Below, in pieces: positions 352-50,163 of a stretch of 57,075 nt of DNA. How positions within the stretch are numbered: the stretch's first letter is position 1; every line of letters begins with the position of its first letter. The notes below the pieces were generated by a model, which did not search any database, was not told where the DNA came from, and saw nothing but the letters and a program-made list of their open reading frames with translations. Location: positions 1 through 57,075 of the forward strand of contig PHDM01000028.1 in assembly GCA_002840985.1 (NCBI GenBank), read 5' to 3'. This stretch comes from Bacteroidetes bacterium HGW-Bacteroidetes-17 (GTDB lineage Bacteria; Bacteroidota; Bacteroidia; Bacteroidales; GCA-2711565). The position numbers were made by a program, and so were the translations under genes.

Positions 352-2748
352 ATGATTACAAATTATTTAAAAACAGCCCTTAGGGTACTATTCCGCCAAA
401 AATCCTATTCGGCTATTAATATTGGTGGCTTGGCTATTGGCATTTCTGTTTGCATCCTTATTTTAACCTATGTATTGTATGAACTGAGTTACGATAAATT
501 TCATGAAAAATCCGAGCAAATTTACCGGGTTTGTGTTGATGCAAATATTGGTGGTACGCCAATGGATCTTGCTCTGACCAGTGGACCTATGGGGCCGGCA
601 TTGGATGAAGATTATCCGGAAGTGTTAAAACAAACACGGATTTTTCAAACCGGCAGAAAAATCCTGGTTACACAGGGTGAAAATAAATTTTATGAAGGGA
701 ATTTTTATTACGCTGATTCAACTTTTTTCAATATTTTCTCTTTTCAGCTGATCAGAGGGGAAGCAGATAAGGTATTGACGGCTCCGAATAGTATGGTCCT
801 TACCGAAAAACTGGCCCGTAAATACTTTAACGAAGAGGATCCGATTGGTAAGGTGTTGCGCATTAACGACAATTCCAATTTTACAATTACCGGAGTAGTT
901 TCAGATGTTCCGGGCAATTCACATTTTCAATTTGACGCTTTGTTTTCAGCCTCTACATTAAGTGGGGATCCTCAATCCGGTTTGGTAAATTGGGGCGCTG
1001 TATCAAAAAATACTTACATATTGTTAGATAAGGATGTTGATTATCGTGCTTTTCAGGATAAATTTAAAGATTTTGAAGATCGTCATATGAGTTTCTTAAA
1101 ACAGGCGAATGTGATTTTTAAATTGTACCTGCAACCTTTAACTGATATTCATTTATATTCAAAATTACGTGGAGAGTTAGGAACAAATGGAGACATCAAA
1201 TACATTTATATTTTTTCGGCAATTGCAATTTTTATCCTGATTATTGCTTGTATCAATTATATGAATTTAGCTTCGGCCCGATCTTTCAAAAGAGCTAAGG
1301 AAGTTGGAATGAGAAAAATTCATGGTGCTGTAAAGGGTCAATTGGTCAGGCAGTTTTTAGGCGAATCGGTATTGTTGAGTTTTATTGCACTGATTATTTC
1401 GGTTGTAATTGTTAAAGTTAGTATGCCCGGATTTAGTGATTTGGTGCTAACCCAGGGAACACTTACCGTATTTAATAACCTTTTAATTATCCTGTTGTTT
1501 TTTTTAATATTGACCATTGTTGTCGGATTAGTGGCAGGAAGTTACCCTGCTTTTTATCTTTCTTCCTTCAAACCCATTTCTGCATTGAAAGGAGGTGGAA
1601 TTACCGGTAAAAAGAAGTCGTATGTTCGCAATGTATTGGTGGTCCTGCAATTTACCATCGCCACTGTACTAATTATTTGTACAGGGATTATTTACAGTCA
1701 GCTCAATTATATGAACCATAAAGATTTGGGCTTTAACAAAGAAAATAAAATGGTGATTGAACTTCGCAATCAAAACTTGATTTCGAAAATTGAAATCCTA
1801 AAAGCAGAATTTAAAGGATTATCCGTCGTGAAAAATATTAGTACAGCCACCAGCCTTCCGGGATCAACGATTAATGGAACAGGATATTTCCCTGAAGGAA
1901 AGGATCCGGATACACCGATTATCATGTTTAATTTGACTACCGATGAAGATTTTTTTGACACCTTTGAAATGAAATTTGTGGAAGGCCGGGGATTCTCACA
2001 TGAATTTGGCACCGATTCAATGGCCATCGTTATAAATCAAACCTTGCAAAAGCAAATGGAGTGGGACGAACCAATCGGAAAAATAATCAGGACCAATCCA
2101 ACCAGAGAAGATTCAAGGGCCTATAAAGTGATCGGAGTGGTTAAGGATTATCATTATACTTCATTGTTGGATGAAATTGGCCCTATGCTCATACATTATT
2201 ATCCTTCAAGAACGAATACGCTGATTTTAAATCTGAACGAAGCAAACACTCAAAGTCAAATTGAGCAGGTTAGGGCCAAATGGGATGAATTGGTTCCCGA
2301 AATGCCACTGGAATATAGTTTTGTAAAAGAAAATTTTGAACGCCGCTACCTTTCTTATTTAAAGATGGGTAAGCTGTTTACTGCTTTTTCAATCATTGCG
2401 ATTTTTATCGCCTGTATTGGATTGTTTGGGTTGGCTTCATTTCTTACCGAAATCAGGACGAAAGAAATCGGGATCAGAAAAGTGAATGGGGCTTCGGTAC
2501 TAACCATTGTTCGATTGCTTAATATTGAATTTGTAAAATGGGTACTGATTGCAAACATCATTGCCTGGCCAACTGCATATTATTTTATGTCGGACTGGAT
2601 TCAGAATTTTTCGTACCGAATCGAGTTAACCTGGTATTATTTTGTAATAGGCGCAATCATTTCACTATTAATAGCTTTAATTACCGTAAGTTATCAAACG
2701 ATTATGGCTGCCTTAAGAAATCCGGTAGATTGTTTGAGATATGAATAG
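352..2748 (+). CDS. MacB/FtsX-type ABC transporter permease 1
   Basis: 798-residue inner-membrane permease with two FtsX units. TM1 (about 20-42) leads into a large periplasmic MacB_PCD-like domain (about 45-245), then three TM helices (about 284-410). A second half follows with TM5 (about 428-448), a second periplasmic domain and three C-terminal helices. The FtsX hallmark occurs twice, as KEVGMRKIHGA and KEIGIRKVNGA. The C-terminus NPVDCLRYE matches the family tail. No Walker motifs are present, so an ATPase must come from elsewhere. It ends convergently against HK1 across a 36-bp palindrome. Unlike permeases 2, 4, 5 and 7 it has no visible -24/-12 promoter; an upstream partner may lie outside the window. 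The substrate is unknown; MacB/Lol-like mechanotransmission is the family expectation. Confidence 0.9.
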   Translation: MITNYLKTALRVLFRQKSYSAINIGGLAIGISVCILILTYVLYELSYDKFHEKSEQIYRVCVDANIGGTPMDLALTSGPMGPALDEDYPEVLKQTRIFQTGRKILVTQGENKFYEGNFYYADSTFFNIFSFQLIRGEADKVLTAPNSMVLTEKLARKYFNEEDPIGKVLRINDNSNFTITGVVSDVPGNSHFQFDALFSASTLSGDPQSGLVNWGAVSKNTYILLDKDVDYRAFQDKFKDFEDRHMSFLKQANVIFKLYLQPLTDIHLYSKLRGELGTNGDIKYIYIFSAIAIFILIIACINYMNLASARSFKRAKEVGMRKIHGAVKGQLVRQFLGESVLLSFIALIISVVIVKVSMPGFSDLVLTQGTLTVFNNLLIILLFFLILTIVVGLVAGSYPAFYLSSFKPISALKGGGITGKKKSYVRNVLVVLQFTIATVLIICTGIIYSQLNYMNHKDLGFNKENKMVIELRNQNLISKIEILKAEFKGLSVVKNISTATSLPGSTINGTGYFPEGKDPDTPIIMFNLTTDEDFFDTFEMKFVEGRGFSHEFGTDSMAIVINQTLQKQMEWDEPIGKIIRTNPTREDSRAYKVIGVVKDYHYTSLLDEIGPMLIHYYPSRTNTLILNLNEANTQSQIEQVRAKWDELVPEMPLEYSFVKENFERRYLSYLKMGKLFTAFSIIAIFIACIGLFGLASFLTEIRTKEIGIRKVNGASVLTIVRLLNIEFVKWVLIANIIAWPTAYYFMSDWIQNFSYRIELTWYYFVIGAIISLLIALITVSYQTIMAALRNPVDCLRYE

Positions 2749-2802: not shown

Positions 2803-4152
2803 CTAAAAATTCAATGTAAAAGTTGTTTTTTCTTTTGGGATTGACTGAACCGAGATGCTTCCTTTATGCAGATACATGATTTGACGCGAAAGGCTTAAGC
2901 CGATGCCTGAACCGTTTTCTTTGGTTGAATAAAATGGAATGAAAATCTTGTCTAACTCAGACTCTGGTATTCCATAACCGTTGTCCTCTATTTTGATCAT
3001 TAAGATTCCTTCGCTCGATTTTTTTGCTGTAATCTTAATTTTCGGATTTGGACTATCAACAAGTGCCTCCAATGAATTTTTTATGAGATTGATCAGCATT
3101 TGCTCGATGAGCGATTCATCCGCAAAAAGGTCAAGATCAGGATCAATATGATATTCAAATTCAATTTGTTCGGACCTGAACCTATCCTGATAAAATTTTT
3201 GAATTTTTTCAACGGTATGGGTAATTTTAAACTTTGTCAGATTAAGTTTGGGGTTCTTGGTGACGTTTTTATAAACCTCGATAAAATCAACCAAGCCTCT
3301 TCCTCTTTCTTCAATGATCTCGGTATTGATCGCGATGTCCTTAATAATTTCATCATCCAATTCAGATGCTTTTTTAATCACTCCATCCTGATGGATGTAG
3401 CGCCTGATCACCTTTGATAAGGAAGTAATGGGTGTGAGAGAGTTCATGATTTCATGATTCAAAACCTGAATCAGTTTTTGCCACGATTCCAATTCGTTAT
3501 GATCAAGTTCACGACGGATATTTTGAAAAGAGATAATATGGATGGTATTTGAACCAATTTGGATGAGGGTCCTTTTGATCGCCAGGTTTTGGATTTCAGC
3601 ATTCAGGTTTATTTTTACGACTTGGGTTTTCTCGGTTTTCGAATCAGTAATTGCCTGATGAAAGTCGGGACATTTTTCGAATAAGGTATTCATAAATTTG
3701 CAGGCTTCGCAATGCAGGATATTTGATGCTTCAGGATTAAAAAGCTCAATTTTACCTTTATCATCAAAAGCGATAATGCCAATTTTTACATGATTTACAA
3801 TAGTATTCAGATAATGGGTTTTTTGCTCATTTTCAATGCGTATTTGTTGTAATTCTTTATTGATGTAATCAAATGAAAAATTAAGCCCTTTGAAGTTTTT
3901 CATTACATGCTCATCCTGATAATTTACGGCTGTATCTTTTGATTGAATCCTGAGAAAAAATGCGGCGAGGTTTCTGTTTGTTTTATTAATGTAATTGATG
4001 AGTAAAATCGTTTGGGCCACAATTAGAACAAATGAGATGATGCTTGCCATGATTTTATCTTCTTGCCTTATCATAAAAGCAAATAAAACACCCATGATAA
4101 CAATCAGTATCACCCGAAGGATGATGGAGACATAAAATCGGTTAAAGCCCAT
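2803..4152 (-). CDS. Sensor histidine kinase 1 (PAS, NtrY/NtrB-like)
   Basis: Membrane sensor kinase of about 449 residues. There are two N-terminal TM helices with almost no periplasmic loop, then a coiled linker and a PAS-like domain (about 105-200). A HisKA H-box follows, NHEIMNSLTPI with the phospho-accepting His near residue 235. The HATPase has N-box NLIKNSLEAL, G1 DNGYGIP and G2 GSGIGLSLSRQI. The tiny periplasmic part suggests it senses within or at the membrane, or through its partner permease. The PAS region contains HCEACKF and then FEKC, a cysteine cluster absent from the other three kinases. I chose ATG 4152 over an upstream TTG at 4161: it gives the same 11-bp overlap with the RR stop as in the other pairs. 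It is cotranscribed with RR1. Confidence 0.92.
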   Translation of the reverse strand: MGFNRFYVSIILRVILIVIMGVLFAFMIRQEDKIMASIISFVLIVAQTILLINYINKTNRNLAAFFLRIQSKDTAVNYQDEHVMKNFKGLNFSFDYINKELQQIRIENEQKTHYLNTIVNHVKIGIIAFDDKGKIELFNPEASNILHCEACKFMNTLFEKCPDFHQAITDSKTEKTQVVKINLNAEIQNLAIKRTLIQIGSNTIHIISFQNIRRELDHNELESWQKLIQVLNHEIMNSLTPITSLSKVIRRYIHQDGVIKKASELDDEIIKDIAINTEIIEERGRGLVDFIEVYKNVTKNPKLNLTKFKITHTVEKIQKFYQDRFRSEQIEFEYHIDPDLDLFADESLIEQMLINLIKNSLEALVDSPNPKIKITAKKSSEGILMIKIEDNGYGIPESELDKIFIPFYSTKENGSGIGLSLSRQIMYLHKGSISVQSIPKEKTTFTLNF

Positions 4153-5697: not shown

Positions 5698-8028
5698 ATG
5701 ATCAAATCTTATTTTACGTCCATACTTAGAAACTTTAGTAAGAATAAAGTTTTCACCTTTATTAATGTTTTTGGATTGACGATCGCTATCTGTCTGGGCA
5801 TTCTTTTGATGCTTTATGTCTATGCTGAAATGTCAACAGATAAGTTTCATGAAAAAAGAGATCAGATATATCGTTTGGTTAATCTTACAAATAAAAGAGT
5901 AAAAACCAATGTTTTTTTTGCCGAGTATGTTAAGGATAATTTTCCTGAAGTTGAAAAAACATGCCGTTATGCTTTATTTGGGGGAAATTGGTATTATCAA
6001 GATCATGAGTATAATCTTGATAAGGTGTTCATGTGTGAGCCCAGCATTTTTGATATTTTTTCTTATAATTTCTTAATTGGGAGCAGTGGATCAGTCTTTA
6101 GTGATCCCAATTCAATTGTATTAACAAAAAGTACAGCCAGTCGATTTTTTGGGAATGAGGATCCTATGAATAAAATTATTAAACTGAATAATGCATATAG
6201 TTTAAGGGTGAGCGGTGTTATTGATGATTTTGCTGCCAATTCATCATATAGTGCTCAGGCTTTAATCCCTTTTGATGTTATGAAAGAATGGCGTCCTGAA
6301 CTGTGGACAAATGAAGGCTTTTGGTCAGTATCAACCCTATTATTAATGAATAAAAAAGTGGATGTTGATAAATTTCACGAAAAACTTCAGCCGATGATTG
6401 TTGAACGATTTAATCGGGAGTCGGATTTTACGATACAGCCTTTATCTGATATCTATTATAATAATACCATAAGTGATGATGAACCACACGGAAATAAAAA
6501 TTTAATGATTTTATTTATTGTGATTGTAATCATTATTATTGTTATTGCCAGTATTAATTACATCAATATTACAACTGCACGTGCTCCATTAAGGGCGAAA
6601 GAGATCGGGCTACGAAAAGTAGTTGGGGCCAGTAGGAATGTGTTGGTATGGCAGTACTTAGTAGAATCCTGCATCATTAGCCTGTTTTCACTTTTTCTGG
6701 GTTTTGTTCTCGCGGAACTTTTCATTGGTATTTTCAATACTTACGTTAATAGCAACCTATTAGTTAAAACATTCTACTCAATTAAATTCCTTCCTTTTAT
6801 CATTTTGTCAGGTATTATATTTGGACTTCTTTCGGGTTTGTATCCTTCCTTTTTTATTACTTCATTTAAAACAACAGAAGTACTAAAAGGCACAAGATCA
6901 GGTAAAATAGGAGGCTCTTTTTTAAGAAGGATTTTATTGGTTTTTCAATTTGTTATTTCAATTTGTCTAATGGTTGCTACCATTGCCGTTTACAAACAAT
7001 TAAGTTTTGTAAAACATTTGGATATTGGTTTTAAAAAGGATCATATCGTTTGTTTGAATCTTCCACCATTGCAAGGAAAACAGGATAGCATTATGCGTGA
7101 AATAAAAACTTTCAAAAAGGAATTATTAAATATCCCTACTGTTGAGACTGCCACATATTCAGAGGGAATCCCGGGACGTGTTAGAAACGGAATGGTTGGC
7201 AAAAATAGTGTTACGGGCGAACAAATTCAAATGCGGCATATTATGGTTGAATCTGAGTTTATTGATTTATATGGGTTGGAAATAATAGAAGGTCGGAATT
7301 TTAAAGTTGACAACATTGATGATCAAAATAATTCATTTTTAATCACCTCAGAAGCGTTGAAGAAATTTGATTTAAGGGACCTTTATAATGCAAAAATTTA
7401 TGGACGCAAATGTATCGGAGTCGTCAAAGATTTTAATTTCAAGTCATTACATACGCCAATCGAACCTTTGTTTATAACCAATATTCCCAAATTTTCAGAT
7501 TTAAGTATCCGAATGAATCCTAACAATATAGATCAAACGATGAAAGACATAGAAAAACTATGGGATCGTTTTTTTCCTGATCTTGTCATGGATTATAATT
7601 TTGTAGATGAAGTTTTTGATTTACAGTATAGAAGGGAAGAGCAATTGGGGAAAGTATTCATGTATTTTTCTGTTTTCTCCATTTTTATTGCCAGTCTGGG
7701 ATTATTGGGCTTATCATCTTATCTGATTATACAAAGAACCAAAGAAATTGGGATCCGAAAAGTGATGGGTGGATCATTAAAAAATATAATAGTTCTTTTG
7801 AGTAAAGAATTTGTTGTATTGATATCCATTGCATTCGTCATTTCAATCCCATTATCCTGGCTTTTAGTAAATTCACTTCTGGAAAATTTTGCCTATAAAA
7901 CCCAATTTTCATGGTGGATTTATGCCATTGCAGGAGCGTCAGCCTTGGTAATAACAATGATTACTGTAACCATTCAAATATGGAAAGTGATCATTAAGAA
8001 TCCGATAGATAGTTTGAGATACGAATAA
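5698..8028 (+). CDS. MacB/FtsX-type ABC transporter permease 2
   Basis: 776 residues with the two-unit FtsX architecture: TM1 about 20-42, periplasmic domain, TMs about 265-290, 315-345 and 360-385, then the second unit. Hallmarks are KEIGLRKVVGA and KEIGIRKVMGG, and the C-terminal tail is NPIDSLRYE. It is the first gene of a two-permease operon; permease 3 starts 16 nt after its stop. It is driven by the -24/-12-like element that ends 28 nt before its ATG, hence probably by RR1. No ATPase motif is present. The periplasmic domain is shorter than in permease 1. Two adjacent permeases could act as a heterodimer, but each could also form homodimers. Confidence 0.9.
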   Translation: MIKSYFTSILRNFSKNKVFTFINVFGLTIAICLGILLMLYVYAEMSTDKFHEKRDQIYRLVNLTNKRVKTNVFFAEYVKDNFPEVEKTCRYALFGGNWYYQDHEYNLDKVFMCEPSIFDIFSYNFLIGSSGSVFSDPNSIVLTKSTASRFFGNEDPMNKIIKLNNAYSLRVSGVIDDFAANSSYSAQALIPFDVMKEWRPELWTNEGFWSVSTLLLMNKKVDVDKFHEKLQPMIVERFNRESDFTIQPLSDIYYNNTISDDEPHGNKNLMILFIVIVIIIIVIASINYINITTARAPLRAKEIGLRKVVGASRNVLVWQYLVESCIISLFSLFLGFVLAELFIGIFNTYVNSNLLVKTFYSIKFLPFIILSGIIFGLLSGLYPSFFITSFKTTEVLKGTRSGKIGGSFLRRILLVFQFVISICLMVATIAVYKQLSFVKHLDIGFKKDHIVCLNLPPLQGKQDSIMREIKTFKKELLNIPTVETATYSEGIPGRVRNGMVGKNSVTGEQIQMRHIMVESEFIDLYGLEIIEGRNFKVDNIDDQNNSFLITSEALKKFDLRDLYNAKIYGRKCIGVVKDFNFKSLHTPIEPLFITNIPKFSDLSIRMNPNNIDQTMKDIEKLWDRFFPDLVMDYNFVDEVFDLQYRREEQLGKVFMYFSVFSIFIASLGLLGLSSYLIIQRTKEIGIRKVMGGSLKNIIVLLSKEFVVLISIAFVISIPLSWLLVNSLLENFAYKTQFSWWIYAIAGASALVITMITVTIQIWKVIIKNPIDSLRYE

Positions 8029-49165: not shown

Positions 49166-49225
49166 AAAAAACGGAACACCTTTGTTTAAAGGCATTCCGT
49201 TTAAATTCGTGGGCCCACCAGGACT
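49166..49225. repeat. Copy 1 of a 60-bp direct repeat (tRNA 3' end plus terminator)
   Basis: It matches 49287-49346 at 59 of 60 positions, 121 bp away. It contains the terminator hairpin and the last 15 or so bases of the CAU tRNA (T-arm side and acceptor stem) but no tRNA body. It is either an attachment-site-like scar or a local duplication. A small CCCGA/TCGGG inverted repeat (49227-49250) lies between the copies. Confidence 0.75.
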
Positions 49226-49286
49226 TCCCGACATTGCTTTGCTCATCGGGATGAACTTCTCTTCCAGTCAGAAATCATAAAGTATA

Positions 49287-49330
49287 AAAAAACGGAACAC
49301 CTTTGTTTAAAGGCATTCCGTTTAAATTCG
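49287..49330 (-). terminator. Terminator of the CAU-anticodon tRNA (repeat copy 2)
   Basis: On the minus strand, ACGGAAT, a pairing AAAGGTGTTCCGT and a T-run of seven follow immediately after the tRNA. The stem ACGGAA/TTCCGT encloses CCTTT/AAAGG. This is a standard intrinsic terminator and forms the left two thirds of the 60-bp repeat copy 49287-49346. Confidence 0.8.
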
Positions 49331-49404
49331 TGGGCCCACCTGGACTCGAACCAGGGACCAATTGATTATGAGTCAACTACTCTAACCAGCTGAGCTATAG
49401 GCCC
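49331..49404 (-). tRNA. tRNA with CAU anticodon (Ile2 or elongator Met)
   Basis: 74 nt on the minus strand. The acceptor stem GGGCCTA pairs with TGGGCCC, with discriminator A73. The D-arm is AGCTCAGCTGGTTAGAG, the anticodon loop CTCATAA with anticodon CAT, and the T-arm CCTGG-TTCGAGT-CCAGG. CCA is not encoded. The GACTCATAATC core and the TTGGTC-CTGG variable/T region resemble Ile2 tRNAs that carry lysidine, but an elongator Met tRNA cannot be excluded by eye. Its 3' end is duplicated at 49211-49225. Confidence 0.9.
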
Positions 49405-49506: not shown

Positions 49507-50163
49507 ATGACAGTAATTAAAAATATCATTTTCGATTTTGGAGGTGTGATCTATGATATAGACTTTAATCGTGCCAGAAATGCCTTTGCGGAAATTGGAG
49601 TCGCAAATTTTGATGAGCTTTATTCGCAAGCAAACCAAAATCATTTGTTCGAGAAATTGGAGAAGGATTTGATATCACCGGATGAATTCCGCAGCGAAAT
49701 AAGAAATATTACAAGCAAAGCACTTTCCGATATTGAAATTGATGCGGCATGGAATGCTTTGCTCGTTGGGTTTTGTAATGAAAGACTGGAATTATTGCAA
49801 TCAATTAGAAATAATTATAAAATATTTCTGTTCAGTAACACAAATAGAATCCATTATGCTCACTTTTTAAAGCAATTTCAAAATTTAACAAATTTTAAAT
49901 CATTCGATGGACTATTTGTAAAGTCCTTCTTTTCATTTGATATAAAAAGAAGAAAGCCTGACGTGGATGCTTATTTTTATATCATTGAGAATATGAAATT
50001 GATTCCCGAAGAGACGTTATTTATTGATGATTCATTACAAAACATTAGGCCTGCCGGAGAGATTGGAATTAAATGCTGGCACCTGACGGATGAAGTGACA
50101 ACTTTATTTTCGAACAATAAACTTAAACAGGAAATTATTGATCAATTGAGTTGGGATTTATAA
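49507..50163 (+). CDS. HAD-superfamily (subclass IA) phosphatase-like hydrolase
   Basis: 218 residues. Motif I is FDFGGVIYDID (nucleophile Asp), the helical cap lies at about 20-85, motif II is LFSNTN, the motif III lysine sits in KRRKPD, and motif IV is FIDDSLQNI. This is the YihX-like family, acting on small sugar or nucleotide phosphates; the substrate is unknown. The 3' end overlaps the convergent dus gene by 22 bp. Confidence 0.88.
   Translation: MTVIKNIIFDFGGVIYDIDFNRARNAFAEIGVANFDELYSQANQNHLFEKLEKDLISPDEFRSEIRNITSKALSDIEIDAAWNALLVGFCNERLELLQSIRNNYKIFLFSNTNRIHYAHFLKQFQNLTNFKSFDGLFVKSFFSFDIKRRKPDVDAYFYIIENMKLIPEETLFIDDSLQNIRPAGEIGIKCWHLTDEVTTLFSNNKLKQEIIDQLSWDL

Follow-up and report, generated by a model that had tools for sequence, protein, structure and literature searches.

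Encoded on the minus strand of the window (the whole 57,075-nucleotide stretch of DNA analysed here) is an intact tRNA gene with anticodon CAU, followed by a duplication of its own 3′ end. Read in the sense of the tRNA, the order is tRNA, terminator, 61 nt, a copy of the tRNA 3′ end starting at T-loop position A58, and a second terminator. The 61 bp between the copies are not filler; they hold a conserved structured motif, referred to here as P, for which a covariance model (R1) was built. The features are as follows.

49330–49404, minus strand: intact tRNA, anticodon CAU (ARAGORN; Rfam RF00005, 69.1 bits)
49290–49323, minus strand: terminator hairpin, first copy, directly 3′ of the tRNA and within the 60-nt repeat (consensus terminator scan)
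49226–49268, minus strand: P palindrome (R1 match 49218–49268; structure analysis)
49209–49225, minus strand: second copy of the tRNA 3′ end, A58 to C74, with one mismatch to the tRNA (repeat search)
49166–49202, minus strand: second terminator hairpin, with a shorter T-run (from the repeat; the hairpin does not pass the consensus scan)
49507–50163, plus strand: flanking HAD-like hydrolase gene (Pfam)

From its anticodon loop, CTCATAATC, we take the CAU tRNA to be likely a tRNA-Ile2 of the lysidine type rather than a tRNA-Met. The direct repeat was located by a repeat search at 49166–49225 and 49287–49346 (60 nt, 59/60 identical, 98%; spacing 121 bp), in agreement with the coordinates and the 61-bp separation given in the preliminary description, and its 59/60 identity rules out a chance repeat. 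The copied segment is composed of the 3′ side of the T-loop and T-stem, the acceptor 3′ strand and the terminator hairpin; with a single tRNA detected by ARAGORN, the repeat does comprise a tRNA 3′ end and terminator without a second tRNA body. The geometry had been likened to that of an attachment site, and the arrangement is indeed that of an insertion at the T-loop with the tRNA restored. As to the proposal that read-through of the first terminator would meet a second one, a second hairpin is present, but only the first passes the consensus scan, and the T-run of the second is shorter.

The P motif of the window consists of a remnant of the T-stem 5′ strand, GAGAAGTTCA, and a hairpin CCCGAT...TGTCGGG; part of its outer stem has decayed (GGAA faces GTCC). 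Although R1 scores it at 59.3 bits (49268–49218), this is no independent proof, owing to its presence among the 62 sequences from which the model was built; independent support comes from similar units elsewhere, in other genomes.

Structure of the P palindrome

P-units have the consensus (T-stem 5′ strand)GGRC-GAGAAGYYYR-TCCCGA-loop-TCGGGA and adjoin, with the joint at A58, a duplicate of the 3′ end of the local tRNA. The outer stem is the T-stem extended by two extra pairs with T-loop positions 59 and 60, a stem that the tRNA itself does not form, and it covaries with tRNA type. Among 87 units taken without hand choice, pairing exceeds that with shuffled partners at positions 59 (80 vs 56.9), 60 (83 vs 61.8), 63 (63 vs 32.2), 64 (60 vs 44.8) and 65 (53 vs 35.4), positions 61 and 62 being fixed by the search pattern and filter. 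From position 66 on the excess is small (about 2 s.d. at 66, 67 and 68, less at 71 and 72), with several positions falling below the shuffles and an exception at position 80 (52 vs 40.2 shuffled, s.d. 4.1).

Alignment A1 contains 62 of 88 distinct cores, near-duplicates and several cores with poor outer stems having been left out. In these chosen sequences 91.7% of cells pair (79.8 when shuffled and at most 49.0 when slid), and the covariation score is 0.340 vs 0.120 shuffled, a score in which the choice of sequences favours helix 1; pairs changed on both sides show no excess (8 vs 7.3 shuffled). The inner hairpin TCCCGA/TCGGGA is invariant in the alignment because the search demanded it, and other inner hairpins turn up among R1 matches. 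The apical loop frequently has the form GC-GNA-GC, which is unusually stable in single-stranded DNA. Mispairs are more often G-U (36) than A-C (18), a count on which the selection for A1 also bears, suggesting that it is the tRNA-sense strand that folds. The DNA folding energies of three units are not unusual (z of −0.02, −0.78 and −1.50).

Covariation of the structure, together with G-U pairs that point to the tRNA-sense strand, is what recommends an improbable alternative, namely that P-units are a functional RNA, a tRNA-linked small RNA freed from the tRNA transcript like the RtT RNA of the E. coli tyrT operon. Some units fit it by position, being no more than some 20 nt away from the preceding tRNA or standing in a tRNA-Ile/tRNA-Ala interval. 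Against it, a terminator-like hairpin precedes 37 of 64 first units (tRNA-to-unit intervals below 150 nt; 5% in shuffles), the tRNA-to-unit distance being 6–100 nt in these 64 measured cases (looked for up to 150 nt), and the location of many units beyond a terminator argues for a role at the DNA level or for none. The presence of units also differs between relatives, and P matches no Rfam family at threshold, with sub-threshold matches only. The Rfam model of RtT RNA, presumably RF00391, does not match P-units.

Distribution of P-units

Units of the family occur widely in Bacteroidota and related phyla, are specific to the tRNA that they follow and form tandem arrays. By a pattern scan of species genomes (at least 118 stretches), P-units adjoin many tRNAs and the tmRNA in Bacteroidota, Neomarinimicrobiota and Chlorobiota, matches elsewhere being GC-rich chance matches. 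Set aside by eye as chance matches, before the recombinase scan and later analyses, were 33 loci, mostly GC-rich coding sequence of other phyla with flanks other than GG..GA, and a few in Bacteroidota. One match (L152) lies in a record labelled as a Bifidobacterium breve MAG, perhaps a mislabelled bin. A cognate 3′ end, either of a called tRNA or after TTCG/TTCA, is found within 300 bp upstream in 68 of the 98 GG-flanked matches listed; the remaining 30 include at least five chance coding matches, array members, contig-end cases, diverged copies and cargo cases. By the strict pattern, all but one of 24 genomes have one to three copies each; the exception has 12.

With R1, 25 of 395 genomes of the phylum are positive at an E value of 0.001 or better, the window genome (G000) included, in a scan whose filters lose weak matches. 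Within 300 nt upstream of 20 of the 30 R1 loci fetched is a same-strand tRNA or tmRNA end, two of these loci being G000 units on which the model was trained; the other ten comprise three cut off upstream by a contig end, three not located by the regular expression, an array member at 343 nt, and three without a called tRNA. The strict pattern detected no P in viral contigs, and one consensus query gave only partial matches in plasmids and phages. A phage attP was rejected as the identity of P, as the six viral matches are GC-rich, coding-like and without tRNA genes, and the plasmid and phage matches are partial.

G000 itself has four R1 matches: behind tRNA-Ile2 (in the window), of the Gln type at a contig end, behind tRNA-His, and a weak, degenerate one behind tRNA-Arg-CCT whose tail is no longer cognate. 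The contig-end stretch, found by a search of the genome against itself, resembles the 61 nt of the window but is joined to a different tRNA tail. In a genome of the same genus (G001), two complete units and a degenerate third come after the orthologous tRNA, and a Gln-type unit stands behind an intact tRNA-Gln, with both the Gln tail and the Gln terminator repeated. G003 carries a single unit, whose terminator differs, and no unit accompanies the tRNA in G002 and G004. Further afield, a unit behind the tmRNA ends with the tmRNA tail (G036), five units stand in a row behind tRNA-Trp (G133), and in G278 a unit follows tRNA-Ile at three places with tRNA-Ala next, probably in the rRNA spacer. The 3′ units also have a mirror image: partial tRNA copies in tandem, whose D-loop region bears a palindrome, precede tRNA-Lys and tRNA-Ile2 (L048, 3230–3400, minus strand; L041, 790–1040).

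A second 3′ end is present in 5 of the 30 tRNA-Ile2 loci examined, a share that is if anything too high, since these were the best matches of a query containing the unit; the tandem copy is not a constant, element-free feature of all relatives, which would have told against an insertion site. Presence and absence were also seen in Algoriphagus, where a tRNA-Leu(caa) query matches 70 of 72 genomes, often by the tRNA alone. Among 40 of these loci, hand-chosen from the query matches and read, the site occurs in three states: lacking any cassette, holding a P-unit or holding a GIY-YIG gene. P-units are present in at least eight of the 40, six within the stretch read (one of them without the tRNA body) and two further downstream, the latter from a search that covered only some of the loci. 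Within the stretch read, several genomes have only the terminator that follows the P-unit in G068 and G517, and others (G488 and G508) only one that resembles the terminator preceding it; by eye, terminators look swapped as modules.

Modular terminators bear on plain tandem duplication of tRNA tail and terminator by slippage or unequal crossing-over, without function, which we regard as very improbable. The repeated terminators are nearly identical in G000 and G001, and the array of full and degenerate units in G001 is as such duplication would leave it, but terminators differ between copies in G003 and in several Algoriphagus genomes, P is conserved across phyla and at non-homologous tRNAs, and its outer stem is tuned to each tRNA. 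Duplication explains the length of arrays, not their origin.

Recombinases, cargo and GIY-YIG genes

The preliminary description saw either the scar of an excised element or a target used by elements in relatives, and suggested looking for integrase-bearing islands at this tRNA in related genomes. Relatives do carry elements at the tRNA, whereas an integrase island found no support: a generic tyrosine-recombinase motif is absent from all 30 tRNA-Ile2 loci (searched up to 1.7 kb downstream, about 120 nt only in two). At 90 P loci (626 kb), a wide motif gave five open reading frames, of which two are convincing, a narrower regular expression having proved too strict (no matches); one genuine tmRNA unit (L101), at first removed by the filter, was included in the recombinase and GIY-YIG counts of these 90 loci only. 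Both convincing integrases belong to elements whose right end lies directly upstream of a P-unit, one in the anticodon region of a tRNA-Lys (L125, 1437–2708) and one in the T-loop of a tRNA-Leu (L060, 4798–6063). They were rejected as partners of P owing to another tRNA remnant, with a joint of its own, between integrase and P-unit. Behind the shared terminator of Algoriphagus tRNA-Leu(caa) loci (for example, L251 and L267), and also beside the L060 integrase, are TTGGCAAAC repeats, probably arm sites of an integrase element.

Some P loci hold other genes. In two genomes (G060 and G061), Fic islands, with AbiH too in G061, lie behind tRNA-Ile2 between P-units or between the tRNA and a P-unit:

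L218, 3773–11376: Fic island, with AbiH too, bounded by P-units behind tRNA-Ile2
L219, 958–7269: Fic island bounded by P-units behind tRNA-Ile2

The block of Fic and unit is 97.9% identical over 2.1 kb; comparison regions are 93.0% (downstream flank), 76.4% (250 bp of upstream flank) and 94.8% (another block of 562 bp) identical. On the minus strand of L122, P-like matches at 6061–6120 and 3866–3914 enclose some 2.2 kb that include a gene of the Fic/Doc family; at one side is a P-like unit behind tRNA-Met, at the other a copy of the tail beginning precisely with A58. Further R1 matches of this locus are at 1074–1134 and 1210–1270 (plus strand). No GIY-YIG gene was seen in the open-reading-frame lists of the G060, G061 and L122 cargo loci. 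A transposase-like gene, which we take to resemble an ISL3 transposase, lies within a P-unit of a tRNA-His array (L203, 2200–3650) and was not accepted as cassette cargo, being inside the unit.

These islands bear on the possibility, somewhat unlikely in our view, that P and the adjoining tRNA 3′ end form an attachment site, or an attR left behind, of T-loop tyrosine-recombinase elements, P being one arm of the site, and that the units are sites emptied of cargo. A variant would make it an integron-like site that folds when single-stranded, with a 7-bp outer stem, an unpaired spacer, an inner stem and a variable tip. The joint exactly at A58, in the Doc-like segment of L122 as elsewhere, the Fic/AbiH cargo between P-units with a block more alike than its flanks, and the use of the same tRNAs by the integrase elements of L060 and L125 are all consistent with it. 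Weighing against it are the two integrases at 90 P loci, both separated from P by a tRNA remnant, the 30 tRNA-Ile2 loci devoid of the recombinase motif, and the viral, plasmid and phage searches above. Units so alike across phyla and tRNAs would, moreover, be a poor fit to independent scars of unrelated elements. The earlier reading was right in kind, the 3′ end of the tRNA being a place of insertion that elements use in relatives, but an integrase scar is not supported on present evidence.

Sister cassettes with a nuclease gene have a related anatomy: small GIY-YIG genes stand behind tRNAs and are followed by tRNA remnants in which a palindrome replaces the anticodon loop or T-loop. In a genome of the same order (G055), the orthologous tRNA-Ile2, assigned as such from a similar HAD-like gene (by eye) on its far side, is followed by two tandem GIY-YIG genes encoding 94 amino acids each (the first matching Pfam GIY-YIG at 1.8e-15), each with a tRNA remnant bearing a palindrome in the T-loop, the second remnant being truncated. 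Both kinds of insertion share one array in a Cyclobacteriaceae genome (L059, from G071, grouped into the same genus as Algoriphagus), with tRNA-Ile2, P-unit, GIY-YIG gene and a remnant with an anticodon-loop palindrome. GIY-YIG frames, some broken or partial, occur in 11 of the 40 Algoriphagus tRNA-Leu(caa) loci by HMM, the count used here in place of a short DNA regular expression that undercounted them (4/40).

Small GIY-YIG genes are associated with tRNAs more generally. Among the 30 Algoriphagus matches listed of 82, which come from eight genomes and are in part dependent through tandem arrays, 21 of 26 small GIY-YIG genes lie no more than 1 kb downstream of a tRNA on their own strand (14 of them no more than 150 nt), as against none of four long GIY-YIG proteins. 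Copies of the tRNA 3′ part lie behind the GIY-YIG gene in 9 of 19 loci tested (two belonging to one array), with no matches in loci of other tRNAs. The palindrome of the remnant often replaces the anticodon arm (Ala and Asp; Val and Asn in the order of the window) or sits in the T-arm (Thr). Tandem GIY-YIG genes with periods near 400 bp were seen in G492 (C1:2784365–2785753 and 3264284–3265360). For the order of the window, 3 of 16 small GIY-YIG loci and none of 15 long ones are behind a tRNA, in the part of the matches that was fetched. The two small GIY-YIG genes of G000 have no tRNA within the approximately 3 kb fetched around each; a regular expression found no GIY-YIG gene behind the tRNA-Ile2 of the window, and the four PF01541 matches of G000 are on other contigs. 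The fetched DNA contains a GIY-YIG frame at only 4 of 90 P loci (86 without), so that the link between P and GIY-YIG rests on few composite arrays.

Interpretation and known systems

We consider it an even call that the window holds a gene-less cassette of a mobile family of tRNA 3′ ends, probably moved by GIY-YIG homing nucleases. The data establish how the units are built and where they occur; the moving enzyme is an inference. The cassette would consist of a tRNA 3′ end from A58, a terminator and the P palindrome, inserted at the tRNA T-loop; with the tRNA body on one side and the original 3′ end on the other, it would leave the tRNA whole and a palindrome-tagged tail remnant downstream. 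As the putative moving enzyme, a GIY-YIG nuclease may cut tRNA genes in the anticodon loop or T-loop, and subsequent recombination may spread or amplify cassettes, as with phage SegB. The palindrome could then disarm the remnant, which would offer neither a target loop nor a competing tRNA fold, and the copy in the window would be a derivative that has no gene. Counted against this are the few P loci with a GIY-YIG frame, the small GIY-YIG genes of the window's order that mostly do not follow a tRNA, the Fic, AbiH or Doc-like cargo of G060, G061 and L122, the one covariation measure that does not exceed shuffles, the ordinary DNA folding energies, and the plain anticodon-arm palindrome, in place of the P motif, that GIY-YIG remnants often carry.

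Rather unlikely, in our estimate, is a broader tRNA-anchored cassette system, in which both GIY-YIG and Fic/AbiH/Doc cargo enter the T-loop or anticodon loop, the palindrome-tagged arm is a folded single-strand recombination site, and the window holds an empty cassette; each insertion would in that case restore the tRNA. The preferred reading, of a gene-less cassette, brings oddities of tRNA genes (tail duplications, palindromes, orphan GIY-YIG genes and tandem arrays) under one testable anatomy and offers a route by which mobile DNA could occupy essential tRNA genes harmlessly. P-sites may mark gathering places of defence-like genes, and the conserved motif is a handle with which to find them. 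Neither P-units nor GIY-YIG cassettes at bacterial tRNAs were found described in a search of open-access PMC text.

Several known systems share parts of this anatomy. Integrase attachment sites in tRNA genes reportedly include a T-loop class (Williams 2002). Like these, the units show 3′-end duplication with the tRNA restored; they differ in that no integrase was found at the window locus, a conserved structured P takes the place of diverse element ends, and the gap between tRNA and unit is only 6–100 nt in 64 cases (searched to 150 nt). The attC sites of integrons have an outer stem, an unpaired spacer, an inner stem and a variable tip, and form arrays. P resembles them in outline, with two stems, an asymmetric unpaired spacer and a variable tip, in arrays with occasional cargo; unlike attC, its outer stem sequence follows the tRNA, and most units were seen without cargo.

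The closest repeat geometry is that of tyrT/RtT. The E. coli tyrT operon contains 178-bp repeats holding 19 bp of tRNA-Tyr, and P-units similarly recur in tandem after a tRNA, every repeat including part of its 3′ end. RtT is an RNA released from tRNA operons (PMC4986893). P-units differ in being palindromic, joined at A58, located behind many tRNAs and unmatched by Rfam.

The closest tested system is SegB of phages T4 and T6, a free-standing GIY-YIG homing endonuclease encoded beside tRNA genes; in T6 escape mutants, a segment with a tRNA and truncated segB forms tandem repeats (PMC13096335). The cassettes of relatives differ in that their putative nucleases are encoded in bacterial chromosomes, with one tRNA each and palindrome-bearing remnants, and the copy in the window differs in having no nuclease gene. 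The two systems have in common a small GIY-YIG gene beside tRNA genes and tandem repeats with a tRNA and an intact or truncated nuclease gene.
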